A stretch of 39,174 bases of DNA from Verrucomicrobiota bacterium. Its GTDB lineage: Bacteria > Verrucomicrobiota > Verrucomicrobiia > Chthoniobacterales > Xiphinematobacteraceae. The notes under the pieces were generated by a model. That model worked only from the letters and a program-made list of their open reading frames with translations. It searched no databases and was not told the DNA's origin. Shown here piece by piece: positions 4,832-39,174 of this stretch (its first letter is position 1; the number at the start of each line of letters is the position of its first letter). The stretch covers positions 1-39,174 of the forward strand of contig JAHFTB010000019.1 in NCBI GenBank assembly GCA_023269545.1, given 5' to 3'. A program made the position numbers and the translations under genes.

Positions 4832-4906
4832 GTAGACCCCACGGCTTAAAGGAATTCCGCTATAAAAAAAGTCGCGAATGATACCTTCCACGAACCACGA
4901 ATTCAC
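4832..4906 (+). repeat. A-rich core repeat, copy a, with GGAATTCCGCTATA insert and heptamer array
   Basis: The stretch starting GTAGACCCCACGGC and continuing to AAAAGTCGCGAATGA matches a copy at 17142, but here about 16 bp (GGAATTCCGCTATAAA) interrupt the A-run. A short heptanucleotide array (CACGAAC CACGAAT) follows and ends just before the next gene's start. It fills the spacer between the ABC ATPase and the first glycosyltransferase. Confidence 0.65.
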
Positions 4907-4907
4907 C

Positions 4908-5753
4908 ATGCGAATTTCACTCATTACCCCTACATGGAATCAAGCGGAGTTTCTCGAAGAAACCATCCGAAGTGTCTTGGCTCAAAATTATCCGAATTTA
5001 GAGTGGATCGTCATAGATGCCCTTTCTACGGATGCGACACCGCAGATCCTTGCGCGCTATGCTCATCTTCCGTGGCTAAAAATCATCCGCGAAGCGGACG
5101 GAGGACAAAGTGATGCCATTAATAAGGGCATGCGATTAGCCACAGGTGAAGTGGCCGCTTGGTTAAATTCCGATGATTTGCTTGTTCCCGGGGCGCTTCA
5201 TCAAATAGTCGAAGCCTTTATCGCTTATCCTGAGGCGACTGCTATTTACGGACTTGGTGCAAAGATAAATCGAGAAGGCGAACTGATCCGTGTGGTTCCT
5301 TATCGTTCTTTTGATCGTAAGCGTTTAGCTACGGCCTTAGAAGCGGTGCAGCCAGCTACTTATTTTCGAAGAGATGCTTTTTGGGGGGTCGGCGGACTTC
5401 GCACTGATCTTTGTTATGCTATGGATTGGGATTTGCTCATTCGGTTGGCTGATCGAGGAAAAATCATTGCAATTAATGTGGTCATTGCAAAAATTCGTTA
5501 TTACGCAGATACTAAAACAGCAACCGGCGGCTGGACAAGAATGCGCGAAATCGCTCAAATTGGCAGAGAACACAATGGTTTTTTCGATTGGAACCACATT
5601 TCTTTTCTTATGCGCCAGGTAACTCCGCCATTGCGATTTGCGCGGAAAATTGTAGATGCTTTTTTTTGGTGGGTAACAAAGAGCCGCCCTATTATGGTGC
5701 AGAATTGGCCGAATTATAAAAGTGATGTGACGCAAAAAAGGGAAACCTTGTAG
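4908..5753 (+). CDS. GT2-family glycosyltransferase
   Basis: This GT-A fold transferase has 281 residues from the ATG at 4908, where the family N-terminus begins (MRISLITPTWNQAEFLEETI). A further ATG at 4878 would add ten residues encoded by the heptamer repeat and is disfavoured. Motifs are the donor-binding region LEWIVIDALSTDAT (31-44), GGQSDAINKG (65-74) and the metal site NSDD (87-90). It probably transfers a sugar during assembly of the glycan exported by the upstream ABC transporter. The last nine residues and the TAG stop are provided by a MITE inserted at 5722. Before that insertion the frame would have ended Lys-Lys-TGA, overlapping the next ATG. Confidence 0.88.
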   Translation: MRISLITPTWNQAEFLEETIRSVLAQNYPNLEWIVIDALSTDATPQILARYAHLPWLKIIREADGGQSDAINKGMRLATGEVAAWLNSDDLLVPGALHQIVEAFIAYPEATAIYGLGAKINREGELIRVVPYRSFDRKRLATALEAVQPATYFRRDAFWGVGGLRTDLCYAMDWDLLIRLADRGKIIAINVVIAKIRYYADTKTATGGWTRMREIAQIGREHNGFFDWNHISFLMRQVTPPLRFARKIVDAFFWWVTKSRPIMVQNWPNYKSDVTQKRETL

Positions 5754-5803
5754 GCTAAAATGGTTTTTTTGCTCCCAGAGCTCCTCAAAGTGCGTAACGT
5801 CAG
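5722..5803 (+). mobile_element. MITE-like element, copy A
   Basis: This 82-bp element has imperfect terminal inverted repeats (GTGATGTGACGCA at the left; the right end reads CTGACGTTACGCA on the other strand). It is flanked by an 8-bp direct repeat, TTATAAAA (5714-5721 and 5804-5811), a target-site duplication. It is identical over all 82 bp to copy B (18329-18410) and about 95% identical to inverted copy C (29182-29261). It has no coding capacity, so it would need a transposase supplied in trans; none lies in this window. Confidence 0.85.
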
Positions 5804-5812
5804 TTATAAAAA

Positions 5813-14401: not shown

Positions 14402-14410
14402 TGAGTGGGG

Positions 14411-14564
14411 AGTTCGTGGTTCGTAGTGGGCGGAAGTTCATAGTTCGTAGAACCCACAGCCTGGAAAAAAGCCGCAAATGGCCCCAAAGAACTGAATAGA
14501 GCGAAAAATATTCTCCTTAACCACTGATCACGAACTTGCCAGCACGAACTACGAACCACGAACT
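14411..14564 (+). repeat. 154-bp composite repeat with 17-bp perfect inverted ends, copy c
   Basis: The left arm AGTTCGTGGTTCGTAGT (14411-14427) is the exact reverse complement of the right arm ACTACGAACCACGAACT (14548-14564). Between them lie a second arm-like piece (14435-14450) and the A-rich core (14451-14505: CCCACAGCCTGG, AAAAAAGCCGCAAATGGCCCC, AAGAACTGAATAGA). The arms are made of heptamers CACGAAC/TACGAAC. The right arm supplies the first codons of nrnA. Confidence 0.8.
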
Positions 14565-15528
14565 AGCCACTATTCTGTCCGTCCTCCGCGGGGCTGAAAA
14601 CCTCTTGGTTACCAGTCATCTGAGGCCTGATGGAGATGCCCTGGGCTCCACTATTGCCTGTGTCCTCTGGCTTCGCAGTCTTGGGAAAAAAGTGACTGCT
14701 TGGAACGAAGATGGGCTGCCTGATAAGTTTTCTTACCTTCCTTGTCATTCCCTGGTGACTTTTCCCTCCGTAAAACCACTTTCTTTTGATGCTGTAGTGG
14801 CTCTGGATTGCTCCACTCGCAGCCGATTAGGAAAGGTACTCGATGGCATTGCCTCCCCCGGAGTATTCCTCAACATCGACCACCACGTGAGCAATCAGCG
14901 CTATGGGGATTTGAACTATGTGGACCCGTCCGCTCCGGCCACAGGGCAGATTCTTTTTGAGTTTTTACAATATGCCGGAGCTCAATTCACACCCGAAATT
15001 GCCACCAATCTTTACGCAGCCATTTCTACCGATACGGGTTCTTTTCAGTATGCCGGCACGACTTCTCGTACATTTGAAGCTGCTGCCAGCTTGATTCGTT
15101 CCGGAGTGCATGTTGCCGAACTTTCGCAGGCAATATATGCCACTCAGCCTCTTCGGCGCCTCAATCTCCTCCGGCATGCCTTAAATTACCTAGAATTTTC
15201 ATGTGGCGATACCATTGCCAGTTTTTCGCTGTCCATGGCAGATGTCCGGCAGCTTCAAATTCTCCCTGAGGACAATGAAGGCATTATTGATCACCTTCGC
15301 TCCATAGAAGGTGTCTTGGTTGCAATCTTCTTCGAAGAGCTACAAGATGGAAAAGTACGAGTCAGTCTTCGTTCGAAAGACCCTCGGATTGACGTTTGCA
15401 AAATTTGCGCCCAGTTTGGAGGGGGAGGGCATCCTGCTGCTTCCGGAGCACGAGTCCAAGGGACTCTCTCATCTGTTCGCCAACAATTTCTTATTGCTGT
15501 TTGTCATGAAATCGAAAGTTTCGCTTGA
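14536..15528 (+). CDS. nrnA: DHH/DHHA1 phosphoesterase, NrnA-type oligoribonuclease/pAp phosphatase
   Basis: This 330-residue protein degrades short oligoribonucleotides and may dephosphorylate pAp, as NrnA proteins do. DHH-domain motifs are TSHLRPDGDALGS (27-39), ALDCSTRSR, the signature IDHHVSN, and STDTGSFQYAGTT; DHHA1 ends with FGGGGHPAASGAR. The only plausible start is a TTG at 14536, inside the right arm of the 154-bp repeat, so residues 2-10 (PARTTNHEL) are repeat-encoded. The frame is closed upstream by TAA at 14518 and no ATG lies ahead of the first conserved motif. The 3' end overlaps truB by 23 bp. Confidence 0.9.
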   Translation: MPARTTNHELATILSVLRGAENLLVTSHLRPDGDALGSTIACVLWLRSLGKKVTAWNEDGLPDKFSYLPCHSLVTFPSVKPLSFDAVVALDCSTRSRLGKVLDGIASPGVFLNIDHHVSNQRYGDLNYVDPSAPATGQILFEFLQYAGAQFTPEIATNLYAAISTDTGSFQYAGTTSRTFEAAASLIRSGVHVAELSQAIYATQPLRRLNLLRHALNYLEFSCGDTIASFSLSMADVRQLQILPEDNEGIIDHLRSIEGVLVAIFFEELQDGKVRVSLRSKDPRIDVCKICAQFGGGGHPAASGARVQGTLSSVRQQFLIAVCHEIESFA

Positions 15529-18328: not shown

Positions 18329-18410
18329 GTGATGTGACGCAAAAAAGGGAAACCTTGTAGGCTAAAATGGTTTTTTTGCTCCCAGAGCTCCTCAAAGTGC
18401 GTAACGTCAG
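18329..18410 (+). mobile_element. MITE-like element, copy B
   Basis: Identical over 82 bp to copy A at 5722-5803, in the same orientation. It is flanked by TTAATAT on both sides (18322-18328 and 18411-18417), a 7-bp target-site duplication in AT-rich DNA. It lies between the S11 homologue and the phosphofructokinase gene without disrupting either. Confidence 0.85.
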
Positions 18411-18488
18411 TTAATATTTCAAAATAGCGGCCTTTTAAAAGAAAAGAAGAAAAGGAGCTAGCTTTACATAAAATTTGATTACGGAATA

Positions 18489-29091: not shown

Positions 29092-29175
29092 ATGTTTACG
29101 CTGTCATTATTTGCTATTGTAGCCGCGATTCTCGTGGGGTGTGTTTGGTGGGTCTGTCGCAACGATCAAATATAA
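29092..29175 (+). CDS. Possible 27-residue single-pass membrane peptide
   Basis: ATG at 29092 opens MFTLSLFAIVAAILVGCVWW, followed by VCRNDQI and TAA. The whole peptide is one hydrophobic helix with a short charged end, like known tiny membrane peptides. There is only a weak GAGA purine run ahead of the ATG and it abuts MITE copy C. It may be fortuitous. Confidence 0.3.
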   Translation: MFTLSLFAIVAAILVGCVWWVCRNDQI

Positions 29176-29181
29176 GAATAA

Positions 29182-29261
29182 CTGACGTGACGCACTTTGA
29201 GGAGCTCTGGGAGCAAAAAACTATTTTAGCCTACAAGGTTTCCTTTTTTGCGTCACATCAC
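29182..29261 (-). mobile_element. MITE-like element, copy C (inverted)
   Basis: Read on the minus strand it matches copies A and B except for two single-base deletions and two substitutions (80 versus 82 bp). Its ends are GTGATGTGACGCA and CTGACGTGACGCA, better matched inverted repeats than in A and B. The flanks share TATAAGA but are not an exact adjacent duplication, suggesting an older insertion. Confidence 0.82.
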
Positions 29262-29412
29262 AGTATAAGATACCCCGGGAATTTTTTAAAAAATAAAAAC
29301 TAAATAATAATTTTTAAAGTCAATGAGTTATTTAATATCATTAAATTGAAAAACAGCGGAATAATTTTGCTATCAAGCTTTTCGCATAGTCAGGAATTTG
29401 TCACTTAAGTCC

Positions 29413-38889: not shown

Positions 38890-39174
38890 TCAGTGCCTCA
38901 AGAGGAAATAGATCAGGCCGACAACCAGGCCGATAGTAGAAAACTGTAGACCGATCATCCACTGGATCACTCTGGTTTCAAAACCAGCCATCTTTGTTTC
39001 AAAACCAGCCATCTTTGTTTCAAAACCAGCCATCTTTGTTTCAAAACCAGCCATCTTTGTTTCGAGTGCGGCTATATCACTTTTCAGCTCCATCTTGAGC
39101 TCCATAAGCTCCGCTTTGAGATAATCCTTGGTAACCAAGTTTTTGTTGTCGCTCTCAACAGCCTCGACGATGGT
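38890..39174 (-). CDS. DUF1640-like coiled-coil membrane protein, 5' end beyond window
   Basis: The frame is open from the window edge (TIVEAVESDNKNLVTKDYLK) to a stop at 38892-38890, so the N-terminus lies outside; an internal ATG at 39138 is unlikely to be the start. Residues follow the DUF1640 plan: helix, coiled coil (LKAELMELKMELKSDIAALE), then four exact ETKMAGF heptads, then a membrane anchor (VIQWMIGLQFSTIGLVVGLI, YFLLRH). Such proteins resemble mitochondrial CCDC90/MCUR1-type coiled coils; the bacterial role is unknown. The broken copy at 37000 lies on the other side of the GT9 gene in opposite orientation. Confidence 0.75.
   Translation of the reverse strand, partial: TIVEAVESDNKNLVTKDYLKAELMELKMELKSDIAALETKMAGFETKMAGFETKMAGFETKMAGFETRVIQWMIGLQFSTIGLVVGLIYFLLRH
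38979..39062 (-). repeat. Four perfect 21-bp tandem repeats encoding coiled-coil heptads
   Basis: The 21-bp unit CAAAACCAGCCATCTTTGTTT-like (plus strand; key words AAACC, AGCCATC, TTTG) is repeated four times without a mismatch. Each unit encodes exactly one heptad, ETKMAGF, so copy-number change keeps both frame and coiled-coil register. There are no spacers, so it is not a CRISPR. Confidence 0.9.

Follow-up and report, generated by a model that had tools for sequence, protein, structure and literature searches.

What is the short sequence at positions 5722-5803 that runs across the end of a glycosyltransferase gene, and how did it come to recur nearby? The window (the whole stretch analysed, 39,174 nucleotides) belongs to contig C31 of the source assembly, an uncultured Verrucomicrobiota genome of 2,546,662 bases in 59 contigs. 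An earlier note on this DNA had described a MITE-like family with three copies of 80-82 bp in the window, here called MITE-1, and all three were found. The first two are indeed identical across 82 bp, and the third is inverted with about 95% identity. The copies and their flanks are as follows.

4878-5753, plus strand: glycosyltransferase family 2 gene; copy 1 supplies its final codons and its stop (SDVTQKRETL-stop)
5714-5721, no strand: left target duplication of copy 1, TTATAAAA, a perfect match to its right partner
5722-5803, plus strand: MITE-1 copy 1, 82 bp, 100% match to the copy at 18329
5804-5811, no strand: right target duplication of copy 1, TTATAAAA
18322-18328, no strand: left target duplication of copy 2, TTAATAT, a perfect match to its right partner
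18329-18410, plus strand: MITE-1 copy 2, 82 bp, in the interval between the genes for a D-Ala-D-Ala carboxypeptidase and a phosphofructokinase
18411-18417, no strand: right target duplication of copy 2, TTAATAT
29175-29181, no strand: target duplication of copy 3, AGAATAA (read on the plus strand), with 1 mismatch to its partner
29182-29261, minus strand: MITE-1 copy 3, 80 bp, inverted, about 95% identity to copies 1 and 2
29262-29268, no strand: target duplication of copy 3, AGTATAA (read on the plus strand), the partner of AGAATAA

The terminal inverted repeat (STGAYGTKACGCA) is imperfect, as had been stated. The AT-rich duplications of 7-8 bp were likewise recovered: TTATAAAA and TTAATAT are perfect, and the pair AGAATAA/AGTATAA is an addition to the earlier list. 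A fourth copy lies just beyond the window, at position 43518 of the same contig.

Other repeats are also present in the window. A second dispersed repeat has the core TTTTATAGGAATTTCGCTATA and the palindrome TATAGCGGAATTCCGCTATA, and a AAATCCCAGGCACATTCGTTCTCA module is often found upstream of it. The repeat has eight matches in the window (2595, 4844, 8752, 14011, 14029, 28882 on the minus strand, 29000 and 36876), compared to 1 with the reversed pattern as control. Several of them lie directly before start codons, and the repeat also occurs at L062 and L066 (congener). A tandem array of about five copies of a 21-bp unit (GTTTCAAAACCAGCCATCTTT) occupies 38975-39079, and a 24-bp inverted repeat (AGTGGGGAGTTCGTGGTTCGTAGT) with arms 120 bp apart lies at 14404-14571.

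MITE-1 itself is abundant throughout the genome. With at most one mismatch allowed, the 13-mer of its left end, GTGATGTKACGCA, matches 174 sites genome-wide (84 forward and 90 reverse), compared to 0+1 sites for the reversed-pattern control. Further copies, which the earlier note had proposed to count, are thus plentiful, and they are dispersed in both orientations. Since a few of the 174 matches are right ends, the number of copies can be estimated at about 170. By BLAST, at least 44 copies were obtained, with 40 of the 180 candidates scored. The set examined below comprises 110 distinct copies, each with at least 86% identity to the window copy. The element starts with GTGATGTKACGCA, while its opposite end, read inward, is CTGACGTKACGCA. 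The imperfect terminal arms of 12-13 bp are kept across the copies, although the conservation of the left end is inflated because this end was used to find them. The interior is conserved as well; translations of the copies showed that it is non-coding, 80-82 bp being too short for a gene.

The target duplications were analysed in the first 105 of the 110 copies, with shuffled pairings of left and right flanks as control. Perfect duplications of 7 bp flank 40 copies (1.44 in shuffled pairings), those of 8 bp 10 copies (0.26) and those of 6 bp 2 copies (0.21). Altogether, 52 of the 105 copies carry a perfect duplication of one of these lengths, and perfect flank matches of 9 bp or longer do not occur among the 105. 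In the 7-bp frame, 65 of the 105 copies match with at most one mismatch. The earlier claim that the copies are flanked by duplications has therefore largely held up. As for their length, given before as 7-8 bp, both values are seen, but the picture is refined to mainly 7 bp, with 8 bp rarer. The perfect 7-bp duplications follow the consensus TTANTAA and represent 28 distinct sequences among 40, which indicates that the targets, rather than the element, are their source. Matching is weakly tied to divergence: it is perfect in 13 of 22 copies with at least 98% identity to the window copy and in 6 of 13 copies at 86-91%. The former fraction is lower than expected for young insertions, which counts against the reading as a MITE. 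In the mismatched duplications, the excess of transversions is only mild.

The insertion sites were also reconstructed in their empty form. Only 9 of 67 copies lie within reading frames of 120 codons or more, compared to 53 expected from random nearby positions, and some of these nine may be artefactual, with 7 bp taken out at a site duplicated over 8 bp, as is the case with copy 1 in the window. When copy 1 is removed together with one 8-bp duplication, the glycosyltransferase ends in PNYKK-stop, and its stop codon and the start codon of the following gene overlap within 4 bp (ATGA). The restoration of this normal gene overlap supports the insertion.

Taken with the short non-coding length, the inverted termini, the copy number, the diverse AT-rich duplications and the intergenic location, MITE-1 is very probably a non-autonomous DNA transposon, i.e. 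a bacterial MITE, moved in trans by a transposase. Bacterial MITEs are delimited by a length under about 600 bp and the lack of coding capacity, which fits MITE-1. It also displays terminal inverted repeats, target duplications of variable sequence (perfect at 7 or 8 bp in 50 of 105 copies vs fewer than 2 expected) and dispersed copies in both orientations. The Correia, ERIC, RUP and Nezha elements are all bacterial MITEs, with TA as their target. Bacterial MITEs in general, such as MITEAba12 (PMC6382973), are likewise short, non-coding, high in copy number and mostly intergenic, with inverted termini, and their mobilisation in trans is attributed to an IS transposase. Compared to these MITEs, MITE-1 has its own sequence and ends, the 7-bp TTANTAA duplication, and no parent IS in the searches run. 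That MITE-1 adds a new family to a well-known kind of element, without being a new kind itself, is well supported.

In the proposed mechanism, the terminal repeats of 12-13 bp would be recognised in trans by a transposase, which would cut or copy the element of 80-82 bp. Staggered cuts in AT-rich targets resembling TTANTAA would then receive the element, and duplications of 7 bp and sometimes 8 bp would be left behind. The enzyme is presumably of the DDE type. The claim that no transposase bearing MITE-1 ends is encoded in the window holds, and by the searches run it extends to the whole genome. When the end pattern was searched outside the MITE context, only MITE-1, MITE-2 (see below) and chance matches were retrieved, and no full-length element with these ends. 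The DDE_Tnp_1 matches that could be typed were rejected as parents: they are ISAs1 and IS5 elements whose ends differ. These resident elements are DNA transposons of the source genome like MITE-1, several of them at contig ends, but their ends (CAGGGCTGCCTCATTAAAAA for ISAs1 and CTAGAGCGTGTTATGAAC for IS5) differ from GTGATGTKACGC of MITE-1, and no terminal sequence is shared with either. The rve matches were rejected as well, being IS3-like or lacking matching ends of their own, and members of the IS256-type (Transposase_mut) or IS1595 families had no match in the source genome. The search covered part of the families and end variants, ISL3, IS66, IS982, IS1 and IS6 lying outside the family searches. 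The enzyme may now be lost, have diverged at its ends, or reside in unsearched or unassembled sequence. As a side observation, the ISAs1-family element with ends CAGGGCTGCCTCATTAAAAA is multi-copy (L075 and the contig ends L077, L201, L213, L215, L216, L239 and L247), and its copies break the assembly at many contig ends.

One class of junctions does not follow from a simple 7-bp duplication. Of the 110 copies, 11 (about 10%) have TGA at the right junction, mostly without the same triplet on the left, where TTA, GTA, TGG, TTC, TTG, ATA and TGA were seen; in most of them the next 4-5 bp match across the flanks. A simple duplication of 7 bp would not yield this pattern, which counts against the preferred explanation. 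The right flank of this class could be partly element sequence, or a second mode of joining could be involved. The former corresponds to a sub-variant of the same explanation: a DDE-type MITE of 85 bp, the right end of which includes T(T/G)A, with a duplication of 4-5 bp and TTA merely preferred to the left of the target. It would account for left triplets that vary while the following 4-5 bp match, but is unlikely, as the left and right triplets are correlated in the way of a true duplication: the left triplet is also TTA in 51 of 54 TTA-class copies vs 4 of 10 TGA-class copies (Fisher p = 2e-4). Moreover, two copies carry the triplet TTT on both sides (TTTAAAA/TTTAAAA and, with 1 mismatch, TTTATAA/TTTATCA), and by eye the TGA-class copies do not form a single lineage.

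MITE-1 copies are also arranged in tandem, with exact spacers of 7-8 bp, at five places. Three copies occur at L014/L017 and two each at L023, L095, L096 and L107, and the spacers are mostly common to neighbouring copies. In the four array pairs measured, neighbours are 1-6 edits apart, compared to a mean of 7.8 over all pairs, which fits local duplication between flanking repeats. A rarer second family, MITE-2, has the ends of MITE-1 and a similar length with a different interior (GTGATATTACGTACCCTGCGCCCC...), as expected if the ends alone are recognised. It was seen three times (L053/L078, L071 and L079), each time no more than about 250 bp from a MITE-1 copy. At L079 the two are adjacent and share a duplication, as TTATTCA-[MITE-1]-TTATTAA-[MITE-2]-TCATTCA, its versions being 1 or 2 changes apart. 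This mixed case suggests that existing duplications are used as insertion sites as well. A separate arrangement was seen at L030 (C20:24618-25464), where two MITE-1 copies with reciprocal 1-mismatch duplications (TTACTAA/TTAATAA) surround tsf. A composite transposon was rejected here, as what lies between the copies is native tsf, the neighbour of rpsB.

Two further explanations draw on these junctions. It is quite improbable that the enzyme or its mode is unlike known IS families, with two ways of joining (a duplication of 7-8 bp at TTANTAA, or a TGA right junction with a duplication of 4-5 bp) and a preference for re-inserting into the duplications of copies already present, thereby building arrays. 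Very unlikely, too, is a cassette of a site-specific (tyrosine) recombinase. The junction between array copies, TGCGTMACGTCAG-TTANTAA-GTGATGTKACGCA, resembles two 13-bp arms around a crossover of 7-8 bp, so that insertion beside an existing copy would be favoured; the array spacers are exactly 7-8 bp and mostly shared, MITE-2 adjoins MITE-1 with the same spacer, and mismatched flanks exist. However, 28 different 7-mers among 40 are faithfully duplicated, whereas a spacer-tolerant enzyme would give unlike flanks and an enzyme requiring identity would give one spacer everywhere.

A dispersed structural RNA, terminator or REP-type palindrome retained for its function is extremely improbable: one strand does fold better than its shuffled versions (z -2.6 and -4.3) and the copies are intergenic, but the arms lack covariation, Rfam has no match, and the precise target duplications argue against such an origin. 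At positions 8 and 75, the only strongly variable pair, the combinations (28 G-C, 53 G-A, 17 T-A and 7 T-C) are independent (Fisher p = 0.81), so that pairing of the arms is not maintained, and this absence of covariation makes a structural RNA unlikely. RAYT tyrosine transposases are not known to leave target duplications when they mobilise REPs. The GTAG- and CGTC-tagged REP/RAYT palindromes (PMC3733652) are, like MITE-1, short, dispersed and intergenic bacterial repeats that are sometimes clustered. REPs are, however, single palindromes of 20-40 bp (PMC3733652), whereas MITE-1 measures 80-82 bp and has two separate terminal arms; a single palindrome devoid of target duplication is not what was found. 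A secondary role for single MITE-1 copies is possible.

MITE-1 has an apparently narrow distribution. Of the 213 genomes of the order, only two gave matches, namely the source genome and a single congener. Three further genomes of the source genus measure 0.9, 0.9 and 1.9 Mb: the 1.9 Mb congener contains four degraded partial matches (81-90% identity), and the two 0.9 Mb congeners contain none. Scanning public contigs, both genomic and viral, for the exact core yielded nothing, nor did searches for distant matches in plasmids and phages; some of these collections may omit the source genome's own records. No matching description was found in the literature searched. The earlier designation of the family as new thus stands within the collections searched (Rfam, the genomes of the order, public contigs, plasmids and phages). 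By IF-2, the closest named relatives of the source genome are Verrucomicrobia/Spartobacteria MAGs (best 81% identity). The family is apparently restricted to one genus of Chthoniobacterales-like Verrucomicrobiota.

This distribution, with a 2.5 Mb genome full of copies, remnants in the 1.9 Mb congener and none in the two of 0.9 Mb, makes MITE-1 a possible marker of element gain and loss around genome reduction. Within the source genome, MITE-1 copies change gene ends and operon spacing: copy 1 has provided the glycosyltransferase with a new C-terminal tail and broken its overlap with the next gene, and a gene on contig C20 carries a near-identical tail, SDVTQKKETL, derived from another MITE-1 copy.
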